Below, one piece after another: positions 1-14,566 of a stretch of DNA of 35,706 bases. A program made the translations under genes and the position numbers. The stretch's first letter is position 1, and every line of letters starts with the position of its first letter. Under the pieces are notes generated by a model. That model made no database searches. It was not told the origin of the DNA and saw only the letters and a program-made list of their open reading frames with translations. This DNA is from Phycisphaeraceae bacterium. Its GTDB lineage: Bacteria; Planctomycetota; Phycisphaerae; Phycisphaerales; Zrk34. The stretch is from positions 1 to 35,706 of the forward strand of contig JANQFT010000358.1 in NCBI GenBank assembly GCA_028277685.1, given 5' to 3'.

Positions 1-3000
1 ACTCCGAGATTGGCGGCATTTACCGAGCTGCCGGATTCAACCAGCAAATCGGAGGTGCCTCGGGCAGCGATGATGATACGTCCCGAGGTCGTGAGGTTAC
101 CGCCATCCGCGAGGGTCACAAAAGAGACGTCAAAGCGGGAGTTCAGCGATGTGTCGAGTCGCCGACCGATCAGTTGCGAGCCGGTGCCGCTGATTGACAA
201 TTCGCCATTGCGGTAGACGGCATAGCCGCTGCCGGTGGTCGGGAACGCCACAGTGGCACCGTTCTCGATGGAAAGGTCTGCTCCATTGACGAAGATCGCG
301 GAGTCTGAAAGCGGGTCGTTACTCTCGCTTGTGAGGGTCAGATCTTCCGTCACACGGACCGCACCATCCAGCGCACGGAGCCGACCGAAGCTACTGCCTG
401 CCCCGGATAGTGTCAGCGTACCGGTTCCCTCTTTCAGGATTCGCCCATCGGTGGTACCCATGAGCAAGCCGCTGTACACGGTCGACGCATTGTTCGTACC
501 GACGGTGAGCGTGTGGGAAGCAATGTCGAGAGCGCCGCTCCCCGCCAGAGCGCCGATGGTTGCATCGAGCCCGTTGATCCTGAGCCCATTGTCGGTGTTG
601 ATGTGCACGGTGCTGTTTTGCAACGCGAGTTCGTTGCCGAGGGCGAAAGCTCCTTCGTTAATGTTCGTGTCGCCGGTGAAGGTGTTGGCACTGTTGAGTG
701 TGAGTCCGCTGTTGCCGACTTTTGTGATGCTACCCGGTCCGCTGCCGGCATCCGAGAAGACACTGTTAATCAAAGCAGTAAACCCATCCGCCCCGATGGT
801 GAGTGCCGGCCCCCCACTCAGTGGATCGGAGAGCATGATGGAGGCGGAATCCCCAGTAATCGCGCCAACGGTGAGTGACGCTTGATCGACAGTCACCTCC
901 GTCAGTTCGGATAAGACGCTGAGAGTTTCGGAGACGGTGACCGAGGCGCCGTCTTCGATCGTCAGGCTTCCTGTGCCACCTCGGATATTGACGGCAAGGC
1001 CACCGAGACTCAGACGTCGGGCCTCTATGGTCGAGCCCGCGCCCGTCACGACCGCTGTGCCGGACGAGTTCGTTTCGCCGCCAAACGAAAGCGAACTCGC
1101 CGTGACCAAGTCGCCCCCGCTCTCGATGTTCAGCTGCCCGGAACCTCTCGAGCCGACAACCAGCGAGTCGGCGAGATTGACGAGCCCCTCGTTCGAGATC
1201 ACCAAGGTCGAATCGTTACCCGTGTTCTGCGCGGACATCTCGATGCGCCCGATTCCAGTGAGTTCGGATCCCGCGCCGTCCACGGTGAGCGTGCCGTCTC
1301 GGAGATGCGCTTCGCCACTGGACATTCCCGTGACGACCGCTCCACTGTTGATGGTCAGGTCACCACCGTCGAGGAGGAAGGGGCCCTGACTATCCACGGT
1401 ATTGTTGGTCGAGTTGAGGGCGAGGTTCGCGTTGACGACCACATCCCCTCGGGTGATCCACAGGGTGTCGATCCCGCCGCCTTCGACGCCTAGTGTCAGG
1501 GTGCCGACACCCACCTTGCGCAGTCGGCTTCCCAAGGTACTGTCCAGGTGGCCGTTGAAGGTGGTCGACTCGCTGTTACTGCCGACGGTGATGTCTTGGG
1601 ATCCCACGTTGAAGATCTCGTTGCCGGCCAACCCACCAAGGGTCGCGTCCAGCCCGTTGATGTTGAGCCCGTTGTCGACGTTGATGTTCACGGTTGTGGT
1701 CTGCAGGGCATGGGAGTTGCCCAGGATGACCGAGCCACCATTGATTTGTGTGGGGCCGCTAAACGTGTTCGCGCTGTTGAGCGTGAGTGTTCCTGTGCCG
1801 ACCTTCGTGATGCCGCCGCCGCCAGTACCAAGCCCGGAGTCATGAATCACGCCGTTATAGACCGACGAGCCATTGTTCGTGCCAACGGTGAGGGCCGATC
1901 CACCGCCAAGTGGATCGTTCAGCGTGATGACGCCGGTGACGCCAAGACCTTCCCGAAGGACGTTTGTGGAGAGGGTCGCATGGCTGATGGCGAGGAATGC
2001 CTGTTCCGAGAAGAAAACGGTGTCTCCGGTCACCGTTCCCGCCGCGCCGTTCCGGAGCGTCGCTTGGCCCATCCCACCAGCTTGCGAACCGTTGATCCCT
2101 CCAATGTTGAGATTGCCGACTTGGAAGGTCGAGCCTGCCCCAGCCACCGTCAATTCGCCATCGGAGGTGGCGGTGCCACCTACGTTCAAGTTGTTGGTGA
2201 CGATGTCGCCGCCCGAACTCACGTTGGCAACCGATGTCCCGTCGAACCCAATGGTCACCACCTGATTGATGTTCAAGAGCCCGTCGTTGGTGATGTTTAA
2301 CGTGGCGTTACCGTTGATCTGGGTTTGCGTCATGTCGAAGCGTCGACCAGTCAGTTCGGTGCCAGCACCATCAATGGTGATCGTGCCATTCTCGATGTTG
2401 GCGATTGCGGTCATCGTGGGAAAGCTGACGACCGCGCCATTCTCGATCGTCAGATCGCCGCCATTGACAAAGATCGCACTTTGGCCGAGGGCTTGATTGA
2501 TCGACGAAAGTGCGAGGTCATCTTGGATCACAAGTTCGCCATCGCTAACCCGCACGCTTCCGAAGGCGTTGCTGCCATTCGTGAGCGTCATCGTGCCGGT
2601 GCCTTGCTTGTGGATTTGGCTGTTCGCGGTCCCCGTGATCTGGCCGCTAAAGGTGGTGGTGTCGTCGTTTTGGCCGGCACGAATCTTTGCTGAGCCAAGG
2701 TTGAGATTGCCACTGCCTTCGAGTGCGCCCAGGAGGGCATCGAAGCCGTTGACATCGAGCCCGTTATCCGTGTTGATACTGACTGCGCTATTTTGCAGGG
2801 CGCTTGCATGACCGAGCCGGATCGTGCCACCGGCAATGATGGTATCACCGGTAAACGTGTTGGCACCGGAGAGTGTCTGGAAGAAGTTGCCCAGCTTGGT
2901 CAAATCGCCCGTACCGGAGAGCACCCCGCTGTACTCGCGGTCAGTCGAAGTGGCCAAGGTCAGGTCCTTGGATCCGATATCCAAATTGCCAGTGCCGGAT

Positions 3001-5707: not shown

Positions 5708-6718
5708 CTACAGGTTCAGTGGGCGATCGATTTCTGTGAGCATTTGCGACTGATCCACAATGCCGGGTTGTGTGAGCCATTCCATGCGGTTATCGCGACG
5801 GTGGGCTGAGGGGCGGAACGACACAGCGCGGTTGGCGATCTCGATAGACTGCCAGCCGGCATCGGTATGAAACACACCCTTGAGCCGAAGCACCTGATTG
5901 TCCGCGATGCCCTGATGACAGATGCGCATCAGGTTGATCATCAGAACCTCTTCATCGAAGCTTCGCCCGGGGTCAAGTATGAACCCCCCTGGGTGCACCG
6001 TCGGATCGTGGGCGTGATCATGATCGTGATGATGATCATGATCACCATCATGTTCGTGGTTGTGATGGTGATGATCGTGCGCAACCGGTTCAGGCGTCTG
6101 CGGCGGGTCGACGGATAGATCAAAGATTTCCGAAGGCAGTTTCCCGTGGGATGTGGTGAGCACACGCAGCTTCGGCGGGTCGAGATTCTCGCCCCATTCC
6201 TGGGCTGCTTTGATCTTCGCATCGCTGACTTGATCACATCGATTGAAGACCAGGATATCGGCGGCCTCGCAGAACACGTTGAAGTAAAGAACGCGCTCGT
6301 ACGTTTTGGCATCAAATTGGGACGCGCTCAGGATCACAATGGTGGGCTGCAGGCGGATTCCGAGTTTCTCTTGATATTGCTCTAACAGGTCAATCACCTG
6401 CGCCGGTGACGCCATGCCACTGGGTTCAATGATCAGTCGATCCAGCGTCTGTTCTGAGAGGATGCGATCGATACACTGGGGCAGCTCCGCCAGCATGGTG
6501 CAGCAGATGCAACCGCCGGGGATATTGAGCACTTTGGTTGACGGAGACTCGGCCTGAAGCATCGTGCTGTCGAGACCAATGGGACCAAAGTCATTGACCA
6601 GCACGCCGACACGTTGGCTCGATGCGTGGTGGCGAAGGTAGTTGAGAATCGCGGATGTCTTACCGACACCCAACGGGCCGGAGACGATGTGGCAGGGAAT
6701 GGTCGGCGTTTTCATCAT
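5708..6718 (-). CDS. COG0523 (CobW-like) GTPase with poly-His metal-binding loop
   Basis: 336-aa G3E-family GTPase. Visible motifs are Walker A SGPLGVGKTS (residues 13-22), the family metal-binding signature GGCICC (68-73), EPSG (98-101) and the base-recognition motif NRCD (159-162). Residues 214-242 form a linker of almost only His and Asp, as in metal-buffering COG0523 proteins such as HypB- or YjiA-like zinc chaperones. A CobW C-terminal domain follows. It is the last gene of the minus-strand metal operon, after the HisI-like gene. ATG at 6718 or 6715 are both possible. Likely role is GTP-dependent zinc delivery or storage in the cytoplasm. It differs clearly from the upstream COG0523 gene at 8546-9787, so the two are not a recent duplication. 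Metal identity is inferred from context. Confidence 0.88.
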   Translation of the reverse strand: MMKTPTIPCHIVSGPLGVGKTSAILNYLRHHASSQRVGVLVNDFGPIGLDSTMLQAESPSTKVLNIPGGCICCTMLAELPQCIDRILSEQTLDRLIIEPSGMASPAQVIDLLEQYQEKLGIRLQPTIVILSASQFDAKTYERVLYFNVFCEAADILVFNRCDQVSDAKIKAAQEWGENLDPPKLRVLTTSHGKLPSEIFDLSVDPPQTPEPVAHDHHHHNHEHDGDHDHHHDHDHAHDPTVHPGGFILDPGRSFDEEVLMINLMRICHQGIADNQVLRLKGVFHTDAGWQSIEIANRAVSFRPSAHRRDNRMEWLTQPGIVDQSQMLTEIDRPLNL

Positions 6719-6743: not shown

Positions 6744-7214
6744 TTAGAGCTGGGTGGGGTTGGGAGCATCACCATAGACCTTCTTTGGATCGAAAGTCTT
6801 TTCCTGCTCCGTAAATCCCAGCGGTTGGCCAGCCTGGTCGCCAAACGGAACGGCCCGGTAGAAGCATGAGCGGTATCCGACGTGGCAACTGGCCCCGCCC
6901 TGGACGTCCACGCGCAGCCAGATGCAGTCCTGATCGTCATCGATGCGCATCTCCTTAACGCGCTGCACCAGGCCGCTGGTAGCGCCCTTGTGCCAAAGAA
7001 CCTTTCGACTCCGACTCCAATATACAGCTTCGCCCAGTTTGATCGTTTGCGTGAGCGCCTCGGCGTTCATGTAGGCGTGCATGAGCACTTCGCCGGACGT
7101 GAAGTCCGTCGTGACCACGGGGATCAGTCCATGCTCATCGAACTTGGGTGCCAGATCGGAGCCTTCTTCGACCTGCTCGACGCTTTGTCTTTCTGAAAAT
7201 GTTGAATTACTCAT
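6744..7214 (-). CDS. hisI: HisI-like phosphoribosyl-AMP cyclohydrolase (operon paralogue)
   Basis: 156-aa protein with the PR-AMP cyclohydrolase signature: [17 protein letters not shown] (residues 65-81), the Asp cluster IDDDQDC (91-97), [12 protein letters not shown] (109-120). The family hydrolyses the purine ring of phosphoribosyl-AMP in histidine synthesis and normally uses Zn plus Mg. Here the usual DCD cluster reads DDDQDC, so one Cys is shifted; Cys97, Cys110, His111 and Cys117 remain, and a metal-dependent reaction is still plausible. No other his gene is nearby. HisI paralogues beside COG0523 genes are a known feature of zinc-limitation regulons, and that is the likely job here. Start ATG 7214 follows AAGGAG with a 9-nt spacer. 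The gap to the second COG0523 gene is 25 nt, consistent with one transcript. Confidence 0.88.
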
Positions 7215-7270: not shown

Positions 7271-7570
7271 TCATTCGTCGCCCGCGCTGATCACGTCTGG
7301 TCCTTTACCTGTTCGTTTTTCGTAGTAACCGTCGCCCGCCTTGACGTACTTGGTCAGGCCGTGCGCTTCGAGATTCTTGTCGGACAGCAGTTGCTTGGTT
7401 CCCGATTCGGAATACTGCCCCGCGATATGAGGTGGCTGAATCAACCGACGCACCGGCTGACCCGTTGTGGGATGCTTCGTCAGCGGCTCATCGGACATCT
7501 TCTGCATCACCTCGAACAATTGGCCGGGTTCGTCATCGTCCAACACGACTTCATACACATAAATCGGCAT
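7271..7570 (-). CDS. FmdB-like regulatory protein lacking the zinc-ribbon cysteines
   Basis: 99 aa. The start MPIYVYE and the segment FEVMQKMSDEPLTKHPT...GQPVRRLI match the FmdB family (usual pattern MPIYEYxCxxCG...FEVxQxMSDxPLxxCPxCGGxVRR). All four zinc-ribbon cysteines are gone: the first pair is replaced by VVLDDDEPG and the second by KHPTTG. The whole protein has no cysteine. This is what a zinc-independent (C-minus) paralogue would look like, and its place in a zinc-type regulon supports that reading. ATG 7570 has GGAG 8 nt upstream and overlaps the TGA of the preceding gene by one base (TGATG), so translation is coupled. Biochemical function of the FmdB group is poorly defined. Confidence 0.82.
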   Translation of the reverse strand: MPIYVYEVVLDDDEPGQLFEVMQKMSDEPLTKHPTTGQPVRRLIQPPHIAGQYSESGTKQLLSDKNLEAHGLTKYVKAGDGYYEKRTGKGPDVISAGDE

Positions 7571-7956
7571 CACTTCTGCTCCAAGGCTACGTCCGATGAA
7601 ACGGTGGATTCATTCTGCGTGTCGGTGGCGGGTCGGCGTTTGTAAGCGACGATGCCCACGATCAGTCCGATGGCGGCCGAGAGCAAACCCCGCAGGCAGG
7701 CCAGGAGCACCCCGCCACAGCACGGGCAGGGGGTGAAGATGATGGTGGAGATCAGGCCCCACCCCACACCCTTGGAGGTTGCCCGACCCAGGCGCGAAGA
7801 CAACCAGGGGAATCGCTGGTTCTTGTGGTCGTGCTTGTCCGTATTGTCGTGATAATGGTCGTGGCAGTCGCACCCCGAAACGCAGGTGCAGGGCGTCTGA
7901 GATCGCTGTTCAACCAAAGCATCAGTTTGGACTAAGGGTGTCACCGTCGGCCGCAT
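7570..7956 (-). CDS. Small Cys/His-rich membrane protein, unrecognised
   Basis: 128 aa. Residues ~22-46 are a metal-binding-like tail: CTCVSGCDCHDHYHDNTDKH followed by DHK. Then comes a hydrophobic part of probably two transmembrane helices (residues ~68-108) with the motif TPCPCCGGVLLACLRG at the start of the first helix or loop. The C-terminus is polar. I do not recognise the family. The Cys-rich loop next to a helix is reminiscent of small Mer-type metal-handling proteins, but similarity is not strong enough to assign. It lies 27 nt after the Ni-SOD stop and overlaps the FmdB-like start by one base, so it belongs to the operon. A plausible role is membrane metal binding or transfer, possibly serving the Ni-SOD or a zinc system. 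Confidence 0.7.
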   Translation of the reverse strand: MRPTVTPLVQTDALVEQRSQTPCTCVSGCDCHDHYHDNTDKHDHKNQRFPWLSSRLGRATSKGVGWGLISTIIFTPCPCCGGVLLACLRGLLSAAIGLIVGIVAYKRRPATDTQNESTVSSDVALEQK

Positions 7957-7983: not shown

Positions 7984-8478
7984 TCAATGCTTGTGCGACT
8001 TACTCCAAACGTGTTTGATACCATGAATCGCGTTGCGGAGCCGGGTGACGGCGGCGGCATCGGTGGTCTGCTTGGTCTTCATCGCCGCGATCATCACTTC
8101 ATGGTGCAGCGCAAGCTTGTCCAGGTAGGCGTCGTAACCTTCAGCGCCCTTGGCGACAGGCTTGAGCTTCTGGGCAAGGAAGTACTCGCTTGTCACGCTC
8201 ATGATGCGCGATGCATGTTCTTCCTTGGCGATCGTCCAGCGCACGAATTGCTGCTGACTTTGCGCGTCCTTCTTGCCCGCGAGTTCGTTCATCAGTTTCA
8301 TCGCTTTGTCGATCGTCGTTGCATCTTCATACAACGCCTTGATGCGAGCATTCTCATCAAAGATGCCGCAAGGCACCTGGCAGTGTGCATGCGTGCTTGA
8401 GACAGACTGATTAAGGATCGTGATGCCGGCTGCGATAACGGCGAGAACAACGGCGACGGTGGTGAGTGACTTAAGCAT
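7984..8478 (-). CDS. sodN: Nickel superoxide dismutase with N-terminal signal peptide
   Basis: 164 aa. Residues 32-40 read HCQVPCGIF, the nickel hook of Ni-SOD (family pattern H-C-x-x-P-C-G-x-Y): His32, Cys33 and Cys37 would be His1, Cys2 and Cys6 of the mature enzyme. A helical-bundle-type sequence follows. Position 9 of the hook is Phe rather than the usual Tyr, and position 3 is Gln rather than Asp. Classical Ni-SODs carry a short propeptide removed by the SodX protease. Here residues 1-31 form a hydrophobic export signal ending THA|HC, so signal peptidase would itself expose His1. The enzyme would then be extracytoplasmic, dismutating superoxide outside the cytoplasm. ATG 8478 follows AAAGGGAG. 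It lies 67 nt after the first COG0523 gene, and no sodX is visible nearby. In a zinc-type regulon it could replace a Cu/Zn-SOD. Confidence 0.88.
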   Translation of the reverse strand: MLKSLTTVAVVLAVIAAGITILNQSVSSTHAHCQVPCGIFDENARIKALYEDATTIDKAMKLMNELAGKKDAQSQQQFVRWTIAKEEHASRIMSVTSEYFLAQKLKPVAKGAEGYDAYLDKLALHHEVMIAAMKTKQTTDAAAVTRLRNAIHGIKHVWSKSHKH

Positions 8479-8545
8479 GGGTGACTCCCTTTGCCAGTGG
8501 CATGATCGTGAGCGGTGAGTACGTTGCGCGTTAGCTGGCGTGCAT

Positions 8546-9787
8546 CTACTGCGTAACCTGGGGTTCCCAACTCGGCAGTGGGTCTTCAAATGTCTGCCAC
8601 TGCTCTGGGCCAAGCGCGATTTCTTCGCTGGTGACCAGCGCCGCGTCGAGCTTGGCTTCCAGTGCTTCGCGGTCCATCTCAACACCGATGAACACGATCT
8701 CCTGGCGACAGTCGCCGACTTCGTCGTCCCAGATTTCATCGATCCACTCGCGCGTCTCCGGGTCTTGCGGCCAGTTGTCTTTGCCAATCGCCGCAAACCA
8801 GTACCCAGCCCGATCGATCTGCAGCGACGAGCCGGCTTGCGACCACACGCCGCAATAGTGGGGCCGAGAGGCGACCCAAAGGTAACCCTTGGAGCGGATC
8901 ACGCCATTCATGCCAGATTCTATGGCGTCCATCAGCCGCTTGGGGTGAAAAGGTTTGCGACGGCGGTAAACGAAACTGCCGATGCCGTATTCCTCCGTCT
9001 CGGGGATGTGCTCGCCGTTGAGTTCCTTGATCCAACCGGGCATCAGCGAGGCCTTCTCTTCATCGTAAAGCCCCGTGCCGACCACCTCGGACATCTCCAT
9101 CTGACCGCGCTGCGTGCGAATCAGTCGGGCATCGGGATTCATGTGATGGAGGATGCCCTCCAGTCGTTCGATCTCTTTGGTCTCGACCAGGTCACACTTG
9201 TTGATGACAATCACGTTGGCAAATTCGATCTGATCGGTCAGCAGATCGACAATGGTGCGTTCGTCTTCTTCGCTCATGCCAAGGTCCCGATCGCGCAGGT
9301 CCTGGCGGCTGTCGAAGTCGCGCAGGAAGTTCGCGGCATCGACCACCGTGACCATCGTGTCGATGGCGGCAATGTCACTGAGCGATCGACCGTCTTCATC
9401 TCGGAACGAGAACGTCGCGGCGACCGGCATCGGTTCGGCAATTCCCGTCGCCTCGATCAACAGGTGATCAAACCGACCTTCCTGTGCCAGCCGATTGACT
9501 TCGACCATCAGGTCTTCCCGAAGCGTGCAGCAGATGCAGCCGTTGGTCATTTCGACCATCTTCTCTTCGGTGCGCGACAGTTCCGCACCACCATCGCGAA
9601 CCAGCGATGCGTCGATGTTGACTTCGGACATGTCGTTGACAATCACCGCAACGCGCAGGCCCTCACGGTTGTTCAGAACGTGGTTGAGCAAGGTCGTTTT
9701 GCCGGCTCCGAGAAAACCGGACAAGACGGTGACGGGTAGTTTCGTTTCGTGCATTGAATGCGGCCTTTCGTATCGCTCGTTTTGCAT
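8546..9787 (-). CDS. COG0523 (CobW-like) zinc-chaperone-type GTPase
   Basis: 413 aa. Walker [13 protein letters not shown] (residues 23-34), the CxCC signature [10 protein letters not shown] (81-90), EATG (112-115) and NKCD (196-199), followed by a CobW C-terminal domain ending in the PGQTW-like segment [15 protein letters not shown]. This layout matches the zinc-regulated YciC/ZigA/ZagA branch, proposed to deliver zinc to client proteins when zinc is scarce. MQN at 9787 begins 6 nt after the ATPase stop with GGGGTGAG as possible Shine-Dalgarno. MHETKLP at 9754 is the alternative start and fits the usual family N-terminus better. No poly-His stretch, in contrast to the other COG0523 gene at 5708-6718. 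Confidence 0.92.
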
Positions 9788-9793
9788 AAGTAC

Positions 9794-11851
9794 TCACCCC
9801 GCGATACGTCCAATGACTGGGTCAGAGTCAACAGCTGGCATCGGCTGTGTGCCCTGAGTGCGTTTCTTGGTTCGGGCTGATCGATTCCGTTCCATATCTT
9901 CAAGCAGTGGCAGGTTCTCACCTTGACGGATCAGTCGGGCTGAGTTGAAGACCACCACGATGGAACTCACGCCGTGCGCGAGGGCGGCCACCAGCGGCGT
10001 GATGTAGCCGAGGCCCAGCAGCACGATCATGGTGAGGATGTAGAACATGACGAAGGTGATGTTCTGTCGAATCACACGGGTAGTGGCCCGAGACAGGCGA
10101 ACAAGGAACGGCAGCCGATTGAGTTGACTGTTCATCAAAGCGATGGAGGCGGCGTTGATGGCCACGTCTGAACCGGCTGCGCCCATGGCGATGGATAAAT
10201 CGGCAGCCGCGAGCGCTGGGCCGTCGTTGACGCCATCGCCAATGACGGCGACGGTGTGACCACGCTGCTTCAACTGCTGCACGATGTCGAGCTTGTCGCC
10301 CGGCAGTGCCTCGGCCACCATCCCGGACAGATCAAGTGAATCGGCGATCTGTTCGGCTGGGCCTTGGCGGTCACCGGTGACCATCATGCGCTGTCGGACG
10401 CCCAACTCGCGCAACTCCTGAAGGATAGTTGCTGCACCTTCGCGTGTCTGATCAGATAACCCAACCCATCCGATACAACGACCTGCCTCAGCGAGTAACA
10501 GAACACTCATGCTACCTGCATCCTCGAGCAGGTTGGCGGGGATGTAGATGCCGCACTCCCGAAGCCAAGCTTCCCGGCCAGCCATGACCGCGCTGCCATC
10601 ACGCGTGCCACGCACACCACGACCCGTTACTTCCTCAAAGTCTTCGACCTCGGACAAGTCGATCTTTGCGCGCTGGGACATGGCCACCACGGCACGCGCA
10701 ATCGGGTGACGGGAGTGTTGCTCAAGCGACGCAGCCAATCGCAACAAGTCAGCCGGGTCGGTTCCCTCAGCCGGATATAGCCGTGTCACTGCGAGATCGC
10801 CTGTGGTGAGTGTGCCGGTCTTGTCGAACACGATTGCGGTCAGTTTCTGAGCGACTTCGATGTCTGTGACTCGCTTGACCAGGATTCCCAGGCGGGCTGC
10901 GGCCGTCAGCGCAGCCACCATGGCTACCGGACCTGAGATGATGATCTCCATCGGACAGGCGATCAGCAGAAGGCTAATGGCCAGTGAGATGTCACGTGTG
11001 AAGAACAGCAGGATACCAGCAATACACAGCACCATCGGCGTGTAATACCCAGCGAAGCGGTCCAACATCTGAGTGACAGGTGTCTTGTAATTCGCGGCAT
11101 GCAGAATAAGTGCCTGGACTTTACCCAGCGTGCTCTCAGCAAGCGGCTTGTCGACCTCGATCTTCAGCAGACCCGTCAGATTGATGCTGCCGGCGAAGAC
11201 CTGGTCTGATTCGGTCTTGTCAACGGGGTGAGATTCGCCGGTGATGTACTTCTCATCCAGCGAACTGAAGCCGGAAAGCACCCGACCATCGCAGGGAACC
11301 TGATCGCCCGGACGCACAAGTACCGTATCGCCAATCTGCAGTTGTGTCGCTGCGATTTCTTCCTCGACCTCATCTTTCAGCCGTGTCGCACGCTTGGGTG
11401 ATACTCGGATCAATGACTCGATGGTCTGCCGCGCGCCGGCTGCAGTTCGATTGACGATGAGTGAAGCGACAAACATGAACAGGGCGATGGACGCCGCTTC
11501 CACATAGCGTGAGGTCGCGAAAGATGCGCAGAACGCCAGCATCACCAGTTCTTCGGTATGGACCGGCCCATCCGTTCTGGAACGAAACAGGCCACGGATG
11601 GTGCTGAATATGACCGGGATACCGAGCAAGATCGCCGCCAGCATCGCCAACAGCCCAGGTTGCTCGGCCGTTTCGAACAACGCATAGGCCAAAAGCGCAC
11701 ACACCAGCATCACCGCGCCGATCATGGCGATGATCAACTGCGGATCGATCCGAAGACGTTCATCGCGGGGCGCTTCTCCAGTTCCCACCTGCACTGTGCT
11801 GCCACCGTCGCCACTGACATTGCGGCCAGGGGACTGGCTCTCATTCAGCAT
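9794..11851 (-). CDS. P1B-type heavy-metal-transporting ATPase with unusual CPM motif
   Basis: 685 aa. Actuator motif TGES (204-207), phosphorylation motif DKTGTLT (343-349), the P1B hallmark HP in SRHPIA (382-383), TGD (492-494) and GDGVND (538-543). The transmembrane metal site, normally CPC or SPC, reads CPM (299-301), and the last membrane pair carries AHGVSS (625-630), slightly like the HEGxT motif of the P1B-4 (Co/Fe/Zn) group. There is no N-terminal CxxC metal domain. Start ATG 11851 has AGGAG with a 7-nt spacer and overlaps the end of the regulator gene, suggesting coupling; an in-frame opening back to 12160 is antisense-free shadow of the regulator. P1B pumps usually export metal, so its place in a zinc-acquisition regulon is odd. 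Import, or filling an extracytoplasmic enzyme, are alternatives. Confidence 0.88.
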   Translation of the reverse strand: MLNESQSPGRNVSGDGGSTVQVGTGEAPRDERLRIDPQLIIAMIGAVMLVCALLAYALFETAEQPGLLAMLAAILLGIPVIFSTIRGLFRSRTDGPVHTEELVMLAFCASFATSRYVEAASIALFMFVASLIVNRTAAGARQTIESLIRVSPKRATRLKDEVEEEIAATQLQIGDTVLVRPGDQVPCDGRVLSGFSSLDEKYITGESHPVDKTESDQVFAGSINLTGLLKIEVDKPLAESTLGKVQALILHAANYKTPVTQMLDRFAGYYTPMVLCIAGILLFFTRDISLAISLLLIACPMEIIISGPVAMVAALTAAARLGILVKRVTDIEVAQKLTAIVFDKTGTLTTGDLAVTRLYPAEGTDPADLLRLAASLEQHSRHPIARAVVAMSQRAKIDLSEVEDFEEVTGRGVRGTRDGSAVMAGREAWLRECGIYIPANLLEDAGSMSVLLLAEAGRCIGWVGLSDQTREGAATILQELRELGVRQRMMVTGDRQGPAEQIADSLDLSGMVAEALPGDKLDIVQQLKQRGHTVAVIGDGVNDGPALAAADLSIAMGAAGSDVAINAASIALMNSQLNRLPFLVRLSRATTRVIRQNITFVMFYILTMIVLLGLGYITPLVAALAHGVSSIVVVFNSARLIRQGENLPLLEDMERNRSARTKKRTQGTQPMPAVDSDPVIGRIAG

Positions 11852-12245
11852 GCGCGGTCTCCTCATTTTGCCCCGCGCGGCAATGGCTGCATCTTCCGTG
11901 AAGCGTGATCTCGTGCTGTTCAACCTCGAAGCCCGGCGGCGCCAGCTTCGCAATCCCGCGCAGACATCCGTGGACGTCGTACGCTTCCCCGCACTCACGA
12001 CAGACAAAATGGTGATGATGACCCCGGTCGGTCGGCTCGTAGCGCACATCCTTGCTGCCCAGTTCCACCGCCTGCAGTTCACCATCATCCTGCAAACGAT
12101 TGAGATGCCTGTACACCGTGGCAAGCCCCAGTGTCGGTACCATGCGGGACGCCAACTCAAGGATATCCAAAGGGCGCAGTGGGCCGGGGGCGTCGCGAAT
12201 GACCTTCACGATGGCGCTGCGTTGACTGGTAAGTCTGGTGCTGAT
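11841..12245 (-). CDS. Fur-family regulator, Zur-like, with probable AUC start
   Basis: 134 aa if started at ATC 12245. The N-terminus STRLTSQRSAIVKVIRD matches the first helix of Fur proteins. The winged-helix core contains GLATVYRHLNRL (residues 40-51). The dimerisation domain has HHHHF (76-80), CREC (82-85) and CSHC (119-122), the paired cysteines of a structural zinc site. No ATG, GTG or TTG lies between the in-frame TAG at 12284 and the GTG at 12209, and that GTG would cut off the first DNA-binding helix. GGAAG sits 7 nt before ATC 12245, an ideal spacing. It leads the operon and overlaps the ATPase start. A Fur-box-like palindrome in its promoter suggests autoregulation. Zur rather than Fur is inferred from the neighbouring genes. 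Confidence 0.85.
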   Translation of the reverse strand: MSTRLTSQRSAIVKVIRDAPGPLRPLDILELASRMVPTLGLATVYRHLNRLQDDGELQAVELGSKDVRYEPTDRGHHHHFVCRECGEAYDVHGCLRGIAKLAPPGFEVEQHEITLHGRCSHCRAGQNEETAHAE

Positions 12246-12336: not shown

Positions 12337-12364
12337 ATGATAATTCATTATCAATATGTGTCAA
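12337..12364 (-). promoter_or_regulatory. Promoter of the regulator operon with overlapping Fur/Zur-type box
   Basis: On the minus strand TTGACA (12364-12359) is a perfect -35 box and TATCAT (12342-12337) a 5/6 -10 box, spaced 16 nt. Between them and covering the -10 is the perfect inverted repeat TGATAAT-TC-ATTATCA (12338-12353), very close to the classical TGATAATnATTATCA Fur box. Binding would block RNA polymerase, as expected for metal-dependent repression. Transcription would begin near 12330, leaving a leader of about 85 nt. Confidence 0.75.
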
Positions 12365-12444: not shown

Positions 12445-13209
12445 TTACCAGCCCGCAGTGAGGTAGGGCGCGTCGGGTGGTTTGACGCGAGAATGGGATG
12501 CGTCAATGATGGCGATCTGCGGTTGGTTGGCTGATTGACTGACGGTGATTCGTCCTTCAATCCTGATCCACTGGTCGGACTCAGGCAGGGGTTGCTGGTT
12601 GGTCTGGACGAGCACTGCGATGGGCACAGCATCGGCAGCGCAACATGCGACCACGAAACGGAAGATGAGGAAAGTATCGTCGGGAAGCGAGGGATCTCGG
12701 TAGGTGCGTCCGATGGTCGCAATGCGTCGGCCGGCCATCGCCGGGCCGTCGGTGACAATGGTCTGCAAAGAGACGGACGACAGTGTTGAGGTTGCCTGGT
12801 CGTCATGGCCCCATGGTTGGGACGCAACGTTCTGCGTCAGCGAAGCTAGTGAAGCAGGCGCAAGCCATCGGCTGGCGAACGCGTTGGCATTCAGACTCTC
12901 ATGGGTTGGCCCAGCAAGGGTCAACCAGACCGGCAAGAGCAACAGGGCAACAGACAACCAACGGCCCAGCGAAGACTTTGCAGAACAACCGCAACCTGAA
13001 CTTGAAGATATTTTGGCGGTCTGCGCATAGAGAAGAATGAACAGTCCACCGATGGCAACCGCCAGCAGTGGCCAGAAATCTGTCGCGATGTAGAGTTGGT
13101 ATTGGCCGTGCAAGAGCAACAGTATCAAGCCGACCATCCAACCGATCAGACAGATGAACTGGGGGCTGAACCATTGCTTCCAGTGCTTTTCGTGGCAAGC
13201 GTGAGTCAT
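12445..13209 (-). CDS. TIGR03943/DUF1980-family putative permease subunit (YcgQ-like)
   Basis: 254 aa. The N-terminal third has two membrane helices (about residues 17-36 and 44-62), then SSSGCGCS (70-76), another helix (about 84-101), then a soluble part with RFVVACCAADAVPIAV, the typical C-terminal motif of this family, and an OB-like end IRIEGRITV. These proteins are partners of DUF318 permeases and recur in zinc-repressed operons. The start ATG overlaps the permease stop as ATGA (13209-13206), so the two are co-translated. The substrate (zinc or a zinc ligand) is inferred. Confidence 0.83.
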   Translation of the reverse strand: MTHACHEKHWKQWFSPQFICLIGWMVGLILLLLHGQYQLYIATDFWPLLAVAIGGLFILLYAQTAKISSSSGCGCSAKSSLGRWLSVALLLLPVWLTLAGPTHESLNANAFASRWLAPASLASLTQNVASQPWGHDDQATSTLSSVSLQTIVTDGPAMAGRRIATIGRTYRDPSLPDDTFLIFRFVVACCAADAVPIAVLVQTNQQPLPESDQWIRIEGRITVSQSANQPQIAIIDASHSRVKPPDAPYLTAGW

Positions 13210-14288
13210 GAGCCGCCTCCGATCAGCAGGTGGGTGAGCATACTGAACCCAAAGACGCCGGCGCAGACCAACGCGATGATCCAGGCGACAGCGGTGCGCT
13301 TCATGAAGGCCAGATACATCGCGGCCAGTTTGATGTCCATCATCGGGCCCAGCACGAGGAAGGCCAGTTGTGCCGAGAAGGCCAAGATGCCACTTAGGGA
13401 AGCAGCCACAAAGGCGTCAGCTTCGCTGCAAAGATTAAGTCCGCCGGCCATAGCCATCATGGCCAATGTCGAAAACACCGGCGAGGCGCCAATTGAGGCG
13501 ACAATCTGTCGATCCAGCGCGGTATGGATGATCGCGGCCATCAGCGCCCCAATGACCAGGAAGCGGCCAACCAGCAGGAAGTCGTCGACCGCGTGTCGCA
13601 TGGCCTCGGTCAGTCGCTCGCTGAGAGGTTTGCGTTGATGTTTGCCGTGGCCGCCACATGTTCCCGATCCGTGTTGGTGGGTGTGCCCGCAACCGCAACC
13701 GGTATTCGGTTTGGCGTGTTGCAGCAGGATTGAATCGGTCTGTCTCCACCGCCAGCGGATGATCAGCGGGACAATGACCGCCACGATGTAACCGCCCACG
13801 GTGCGAAGTACGACCATGCGCGTGTCGCCCAGATAGGCGACGGCCGTGGATGCGATGACCAGGGGATTGACGATCGGTGCGGCAAGCATGTATGCCAACA
13901 CGGCCGGAAACGGTACACCCTTAGCCAGCAGACGCCGCGCGACCGGCACGACGGCGCATTCGCACACAGGCAGCAGGAATCCGCCCAGTGCCGCGACAGG
14001 AACGGCCAGGTACTGACGTCGCGGAATGATGCGCGTCAACCACTGTGGGCTGACGAACACCTCGATCACCCCACCGATAATCGATCCGAGTACCACAAAG
14101 GGAATCGCCTCCAGCAGAATGCTGACCAGCGTGATGCGGAACGTGGCACCGGAGGCAGATTGCCCCAGCAGCCATGGCATGGCCACAATGACAAACAGGA
14201 GCATCAAAACGATGACCGGCCGCGCCACTTTCACCAGCGAGAAGCCGGGCAGAACCCTAGGGATGGAGTTCGAGGTCAGTTGACTCAT
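13206..14288 (-). CDS. DUF318-family permease (YcgR/YraQ-like)
   Basis: 360 aa, polytopic, probably eight or more helices. Hallmarks are LPVCECAVVPVARRLL (106-121), AAPIVNP (136-142) and NLCSEADAFVAAS (285-297). A cytoplasmic or external loop at 198-217 is packed with Cys, Gly and His (GCGCGHTHQHGSGTCGGHGK), suited to metal binding. Start ATG 14288 (MSQLTSN) overlaps the TGA of a short upstream reading frame as ATGA. A longer opening from 14495 exists but is Arg-rich and not conserved in character. The family moves ions or small ligands and in zinc-repressed clusters is proposed to aid zinc uptake. It forms a pair with the TIGR03943 gene downstream. Confidence 0.86.
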   Translation of the reverse strand: MSQLTSNSIPRVLPGFSLVKVARPVIVLMLLFVIVAMPWLLGQSASGATFRITLVSILLEAIPFVVLGSIIGGVIEVFVSPQWLTRIIPRRQYLAVPVAALGGFLLPVCECAVVPVARRLLAKGVPFPAVLAYMLAAPIVNPLVIASTAVAYLGDTRMVVLRTVGGYIVAVIVPLIIRWRWRQTDSILLQHAKPNTGCGCGHTHQHGSGTCGGHGKHQRKPLSERLTEAMRHAVDDFLLVGRFLVIGALMAAIIHTALDRQIVASIGASPVFSTLAMMAMAGGLNLCSEADAFVAASLSGILAFSAQLAFLVLGPMMDIKLAAMYLAFMKRTAVAWIIALVCAGVFGFSMLTHLLIGGGS

Positions 14289-14491
14289 GGCGTCTCTCTC
14301 ATGCGGCCCCGGAATGCGCCTCGATGACTCATGAGTATGAACATCGCGCGGTCGCCGCCTCGCAGTTCCCTTCGGCTGTATTGTGTCAGGCCTTGAGATG
14401 AAAACGTGATATCGGCCTGCGAATACATCGCGTCTGCGCTTAACTGCGAAGTGATCACCCATGTGTTCACGCAGAAGCACTGCGTGGACAA
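14285..14491 (-). CDS. Possible small protein ahead of the permease
   Basis: A 68-codon frame starting at TTG 14491 ends in TGA that overlaps the permease ATG as ATGA. The third codon positions are G/C-rich, as in real genes here, and the residue mix (STQCFCVNTWVITSQLSADA at the N-terminus) is less skewed than the competing Arg-rich frame. There is no clear Shine-Dalgarno and no recognised family. It could equally be leader RNA. Confidence 0.3.
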   Translation of the reverse strand: MSTQCFCVNTWVITSQLSADAMYSQADITFSSQGLTQYSRRELRGGDRAMFILMSHRGAFRGRMRETP

Positions 14492-14566
14492 GCATTGTTA
14501 TTATGTTGATCCGGAAGTTGGCCGGCGGTTAGTATGATCGTGACACAAACTGCAAGGAGCGCATCC
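14289..14566. promoter_or_regulatory. Divergent intergenic region between permease and His-rich gene
   Basis: Promoters for both directions must lie here. The AT-rich segment at 14491-14516 is the best candidate for a regulator site, but I see no palindrome as clean as the one at 12338-12353. On the plus strand TATGAT at 14533-14538 is a possible -10 box. Confidence 0.4.

Follow-up and report, generated by a model that had tools for sequence, protein, structure and literature searches.

A nickel superoxide dismutase whose export signal is predicted to end at the nickel-binding histidine

Most accounts of nickel superoxide dismutase (NiSOD) place it in the cytoplasm and make it dependent on SodX. 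A gene in the window, by which we mean the whole stretch of 35,706 nucleotides of Phycisphaeraceae DNA analysed here (contig JANQFT010000358.1), raises the question of whether some NiSODs are exported and matured by signal peptidase. If an export signal is cut exactly at the nickel-binding end of a protein, a dedicated processing protease should be unnecessary. Our main reading, to which we give a probability of about 0.83 on the strength of sequence comparisons, is that this NiSOD would be exported by Sec and cut at His32 by signal peptidase I, so maturing free of SodX.

The precursor and its leader

The gene lies at 7984..8478 on the minus strand and encodes an exported-type NiSOD precursor of 164 residues (P0001), assigned by Pfam and by the fold match of its model. 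Its ATG is at 8478 and a Shine-Dalgarno-like GGGAG (8485..8489, minus strand) stands six nucleotides upstream; the plus-strand frame over 7984-8478 is broken. The protein begins MLKSLTTVAVVLAVIAAGITILNQSVSSTHA, up to the predicted cut, and continues HCQVPCGIFDEN. The Pfam family Sod_Ni (PF09055) matches residues 28-160 with 107.8 bits, passing its gathering cut-off of 25. The sodN equivalog TIGR02753 gives 43.1 bits, below its curated cut-off of 90; three other exported proteins score 35-53 bits and four canonical ones 161-198 bits. The AlphaFold model of P0001 has a mean pLDDT of 88, with high pLDDT in the mature domain, and the best 16 Foldseek matches in the PDB are all NiSOD, the Y9F mutant 3g4x among them. 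These matches have a probability of 1.00 and TM-scores (target) of about 0.63-0.73, with E-values no better than about 0.01-0.08. By sequence, a profile of the exported branch matched nothing in the PDB, although the fold search did find NiSOD. The nickel hook HCQVPCGIF, residues 32-40 (8359..8385, minus strand), is assigned from the sequence and from its invariance among relatives; its HCQVPC part supplies the NiSOD ligands His1, Cys2 and Cys6 of the mature protein, plus Pro5.

Immediately before the hook, residues 1-31 (8386..8478, minus strand) are assigned as a Sec-type signal peptide from their sequence and from leader statistics over 134 relatives. The parts are an n-region MLKSLTT with Lys3, the hydrophobic VAVVLAVIAAGITIL (core residues 8-22) and a c-region NQSVSSTHA. 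With K3, that core, and T29-H30-A31 at positions -3 to -1, the leader has the features of a Sec and signal peptidase I substrate, and the predicted cut, THA/HCQVPCGIF (the slash marks the cut), falls between Ala31 and His32. An earlier note on this DNA had placed the hook right after a hydrophobic signal peptide with THA/H as its cleavage site, and the minus-strand translation of 164 residues confirms this. Tat export was considered and rejected: the leader has no twin arginine, and RR occurs near the start in just ten relatives.

The NiSODs for comparison came from three sources: the window's order, 392 Planctomycetota genomes, and 80 named contigs spread over many phyla. After removal of duplicates the set holds 151 sequences, of which 134, from many phyla, are of the exported type and 17 are of the canonical, SodX type. 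The best ten-residue hydropathy of the leader is at least 1.9 in all 134 exported sequences and at most 1.6 in all 17 canonical ones; a seeming 50-residue leader in one canonical sequence (L119) proved to be an artefact of start choice. Of the exported relatives, 124 (out of 134) have small residues at the places -1 and -3 before His1, whereas the same small-x-small rule shifted 1-7 residues upstream holds in 9-47 of them, a comparison to be read without a test of independent trials since the sequences share ancestry. Exported leaders run from 18 to 52 residues, so the register with His1 tracks the cut and not the start codon. Leader anatomy and this fixed register across 134 relatives thus lend support to the suggestion in the earlier note that export and cleavage would free His1.

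The leader might nevertheless be an uncleaved membrane anchor, or be cut upstream of His1 (for example at Ser27 or Ser28), which would leave His1 blocked or in need of a second protease. The c-region of P0001 is fairly long and offers weaker candidate cuts after Ser27 or Ser28, and relatives in the families f3 and f38 have leaders of 30-52 residues, most f38 members (such as L170, L173 and L177-L179), like L016, being without the motif at His1. We consider this improbable, given that the -1/-3 rule is kept exactly at His1 by so many exported relatives, including the nearest kin of P0001 (TEA/H, ADA/H and AMA/H). Even so, ten of the 134 exported-type leaders lack a signal-peptidase motif at His1 (L170, L173, L174, L177-L179 and L016 among them), reading for example TRAR/HC, MRAW/HC or GPPL/HC, with L179 and L177 as examples of the first and last of these. 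The signal-peptidase mechanism is therefore not valid for every member, and in these relatives either another process must free His1 or His1 is not always freed. Some of the motif-less leaders resemble a signal peptide with an extra pro-segment.

For P0001 itself, cleavage by signal peptidase at His1 remains the preferred reading. The general (Sec) pathway would carry the precursor out of the cytoplasm, and signal peptidase I would cleave the Ala31-His32 bond during export, freeing His1 at both its amino group and its imidazole. We infer that the cut truly falls at His1 and that the metal is nickel, bound outside the cytoplasm by His1 with Cys2 and Cys6; SodX would then be unnecessary, and the enzyme would dismutate superoxide in the same extracytoplasmic location. 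In an oxidising periplasm Cys2 and Cys6 could become paired, which would count against this explanation. How a thiolate hook loaded with nickel outside the cytoplasm would withstand oxidising surroundings, and how it would fare against competing copper, is a testable question.

Two NiSOD branches and the distribution of SodX

In a tree of the mature parts, a single branch with a support of 100 parts the exported from the canonical sequences, implying one change. The tree was made by a quick method from few columns and is unrooted, so it gives this change no direction, be it from SodX to signal peptide or the other way round. As far as the leaders tell, the signal-peptide NiSOD is a property of the whole branch and not a peculiarity of one gene.

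The two groups differ in their hooks. The exported hook is HC[QE]xPCG[IV][YF] (n = 134), position 3 always being Gln or Glu; canonical hooks are mostly HCDGPCGVYDP, with Asp3 in 17/17, behind a leader that is usually short. His1, Cys2, Pro5, Cys6 and Gly7 are invariant in all 134 exported and 17 canonical sequences, an invariance partly built in because the hook motif served in part to gather the set. With numbering from an alignment to 1t6i, the residue equivalent to Streptomyces Tyr62 is Tyr in 134/134 exported sequences, and the equivalent of Lys64 is missing throughout the exported branch, where Leu or Met is found. The earlier note had also drawn attention to Phe in place of Tyr at hook position 9. 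Phe9 is indeed present in P0001, but it recurs in 12 of the 134 exported NiSODs through about ten changes on the tree, which rules out any special meaning for it.

At least two His residues lie within the last 12 positions of 86/134 exported sequences, against 0/17 canonical ones; His-rich tails were seen at the exported C-termini of, for example, L010, L014 and L165. One might guess that such a tail catches nickel outside the cell. The same feature, together with the failure to reach the sodN equivalog cut-off and the changes of Asp3 to Gln or Glu and of Lys64 to Leu or Met, could also mean that the exported branch is not a nickel SOD at all, but binds some different metal (copper, for instance) or works in metal scavenging or sensing. 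Other secreted proteins with an N-terminal His do bind nickel or copper for transport (PMC12537917). This seems rather unlikely here, however, since no exported sequence departs from His1, Cys2, Cys6 or the Tyr62 equivalent and the fold search led to NiSOD alone. In addition, iron limitation induces an Alteromonas macleodii gene that carries a nickel SOD annotation (PMC7190382) and that may or may not have an export leader.

A nickel SOD thus remains the favoured identity of the exported branch, and it leaves the matter of the protease. The window's genome (88% complete, 651 contigs) encodes one NiSOD and a signal peptidase I, and the TIGR02754 profile for sodX has no match in it, so that the genome search called for in the earlier note came back empty; Pfam and NCBIfam profiles likewise reveal no sodX among the proteins of the NiSOD gene cluster. 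Canonical NiSODs occur in 14 Planctomycetota genomes, with a sodX-like gene just downstream in 13; in the fourteenth (G198) the contig stops directly downstream, leaving 13/13 testable cases with sodX. By contrast, sodX lies beside the exported NiSOD in 0/44 Planctomycetota genomes (Fisher p 4e-13, valid if the genomes are independent). Three Planctomycetota genomes hold both forms, and in these sodX adjoins the canonical gene only. The pattern is repeated among 50 genomes of several phyla reached from exported loci: a sodX-like gene is found in only five, and in 5/5 it directly adjoins a second, canonical-type NiSOD. This pairing with the canonical paralogue in dual genomes argues more strongly than anything else here for SodX serving the canonical form only. 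Two of these five canonical-type NiSODs have the hook HCDIPCKIYDP; NiSODs with this hook, which has Lys at position 7, lie beside sodX-like genes at 1429-1929 (minus strand) of L241 and 1426-2028 (minus strand) of L242.

Might sodX or another dedicated protease sit in the missing 12% of the genome and process the NiSOD? The assembly is incomplete, and the relatives contain weak S24/S26-like matches. The TIGR02754 search was nonetheless as negative in all exported-only genomes scanned as in the window's own, including five single-contig ones (G123, G222, G373, G395 and G413); and where sodX does occur it pairs with the canonical paralogue. A search for a conserved partner gene beside the exported NiSODs produced none, the largest cluster (71 loci) being on the opposite strand and resembling antisense ORFs. 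A hidden protease of this kind is thus very improbable. SodX is one of the S24/S26 peptidases and so a relative of signal peptidase; the SodX model gives weak cross-matches to most control genomes, as fits this kinship. Canonical leaders also have Ala at -1 of His1 in 17/17 cases, with endings A-x-A or V-x-A. Given leaders so alike at the cut and a SodX akin to signal peptidase, gain or loss of a hydrophobic segment may have been enough to switch the protease. The claim in the earlier note that signal peptidase acts instead of SodX accordingly gains from the absence of sodX in the window's and the exported-only genomes; its wording that SodX was replaced goes further than the unrooted tree allows.

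The zinc-scarcity gene cluster

The NiSOD gene is one of ten on the minus strand whose order is as follows: an ArsP_1-type permease (13206..14495, start uncertain; PF03773, 202 bits); a DUF1980/TIGR03943 putative permease subunit (12445..13209; TIGR03943, 119 bits, over cut-off); a Fur-family regulator (11841..12209; PF01475, 61.6 bits); a heavy-metal P-type ATPase (9794..12160, start uncertain and probably near 11.85 kb; TIGR01525, 517 bits, and TIGR01512, 442 bits, over cut-off); zigA, for a zinc metallochaperone GTPase (8546..9787; NF038288, 627.6 bits with a cut-off of 600); NiSOD; an uncharacterised 128-residue protein with a CPCCGG motif (7570..7956); an FmdB-type zinc-ribbon protein (7271..7573; PF09723, 32.8 bits with a cut-off of 34.4, and TIGR02605, 28.7 bits, both under cut-off); the phosphoribosyl-AMP cyclohydrolase HisI (6744..7214; PF01502, and NF000768 over cut-off); and a second COG0523/CobW-type GTPase with a His-rich stretch (5708..6718; PF02492, 122.5 bits). 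Directly upstream of NiSOD and in the same direction, zigA is separated from it by a gap of 67 nt. COG0523 genes together with Zur mark a zinc-scarcity regulon, and genes of this Zur-regulon type are present here in ZigA/COG0523, HisI and the DUF1980/ArsP pair. The regulator is a putative Zur, judged from this context; it reaches no Zur-specific or NCBIfam equivalog cut-off and scores 25 bits against PRK11639. Upstream of it is a perfect palindrome of the Fur-family type, TGATAATGAATTATCA (12338..12353, no strand).

The nearest relative of the P0001 protein, 76% identical, is the NiSOD of locus L194. That locus retains the regulator, zigA, NiSOD, the 128-residue protein, the zinc ribbon, HisI and the second GTPase, and the palindrome recurs there, again upstream of the regulator's orthologue, with one mismatch. 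L194 has an extra protein of about 400 residues, FAD/NAD(P)-binding in appearance, at 8129-9376 (minus strand), at the point where in the window the 128-residue protein directly follows NiSOD. In the window's genome there is a second Fur-family gene (L229), whose start is closely preceded by CGATAATGCATTATCG.

NiSOD and zigA probably share a transcript, controlled by a repressor of the Fur family that is probably of the Zur type. The place of NiSOD behind zigA, in a cluster that looks like a Zur regulon, makes a zinc-free backup for an exported Cu/Zn-SOD plausible, and we put the chance that the exported NiSOD stands in for such an enzyme under zinc scarcity just short of even. The window's genome encodes a SodC whose signal is of the lipoprotein type, along with an Fe/Mn-SOD that has no leader; SodC is also present in the L194 genome. 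In two NiSOD-bearing relatives (L235 and L236) the exported Cu/Zn-SODs have long His-rich N-terminal stretches. There is an even chance, on the other hand, that the position in the cluster is accidental and that the enzyme answers nickel, iron or oxidative stress, which would touch the regulatory part of our reading only. More than 100 exported loci were examined and such a cluster was seen at just two, the window and L194, so a general association of NiSOD with zinc genes was rejected; so too was the idea that exported NiSOD explains an absence of SodC, the two showing no association in 101 relatives (p 0.58). Both results, and the regulator's failure to reach a Zur-specific cut-off, fit an accidental position; the tight same-strand packing behind zigA, the palindrome conserved in both genomes and the SodC carried by each speak against it.

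Taken as a whole, the scheme would comprise two old NiSOD branches, one cytoplasmic and SodX-dependent, the other exported, matured by signal peptidase and loaded with nickel outside with help from a His-rich tail, with the present member in a Zur regulon as the zinc-free replacement of an exported Cu/Zn-SOD. So complete a picture is tentative, and we hold it somewhat more doubtful than not. The link to the zinc cluster suggests a metal-sparing swap between SOD types.

Comparison with known systems

The exported branch is large and little described. A secreted branch of this size would change where nickel SODs protect cells, and secretion would be an easy way of making active NiSOD in a heterologous host. 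It could also explain NiSOD genes that seem orphaned for want of sodX: a missing sodX in some cyanobacteria has been read as possible loss of function (PMC8346466), and the NiSODs concerned may or may not have export leaders. NiSODs with signal peptides are already known in passing, since PMC12537917 (2025) seeded a search with the signal peptide of one from a planctomycete and recovered many NiSODs. That paper does not mention SodX and, in its accessible text, does not discuss the class structure or zinc context of these proteins. In the literature that our searches reached we found no description of SodX-free maturation by signal peptidase, of which the sodN diversity survey of Dupont et al. 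(2008) may hold a prior account.

With the canonical SodN/SodX system (Streptomyces; TIGR02753/TIGR02754; 1t6u, 1q0d), P0001 shares the Pfam family, the helical-bundle fold and the His1-Cys2-x-x-Pro5-Cys6-Gly7 hook, and both precursors are cut, in P0001 by prediction, just before His1, which in the canonical set examined also follows an A-x-A-type sequence. P0001 differs in its export leader, hydrophobic where the canonical one is short and soluble, in the lack of sodX and of an equivalent of Lys64, in Gln3 for Asp3, in a His-rich C-terminus and in a score below the sodN equivalog cut-off. The seed of PMC12537917, WP_230780104.1 of Roseiconus lacunae, is likewise a planctomycete protein with a Sod_Ni domain and a signal peptide followed by His, MTRLLTATLALMFTASIASA preceding H at the cut; its signal peptide was used to find other metalloproteins. 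Secreted N-terminal-His metalloproteins (the LPMO histidine brace, CopC, DUF4198 and anglerases; PMC12537917) also have a metal-chelating N-terminus made by signal-peptide removal, but their folds are unrelated to NiSOD and they have no Cys2/Cys6 thiolate hook. Finally, the ubiquitin-NiSOD fusions of algae (PMC6332867) likewise carry NiSOD behind an N-terminal part unlike the short SodX-type leader; these are eukaryotic, with ubiquitin in place of an export signal, and there removal of ubiquitin would presumably free the hook.
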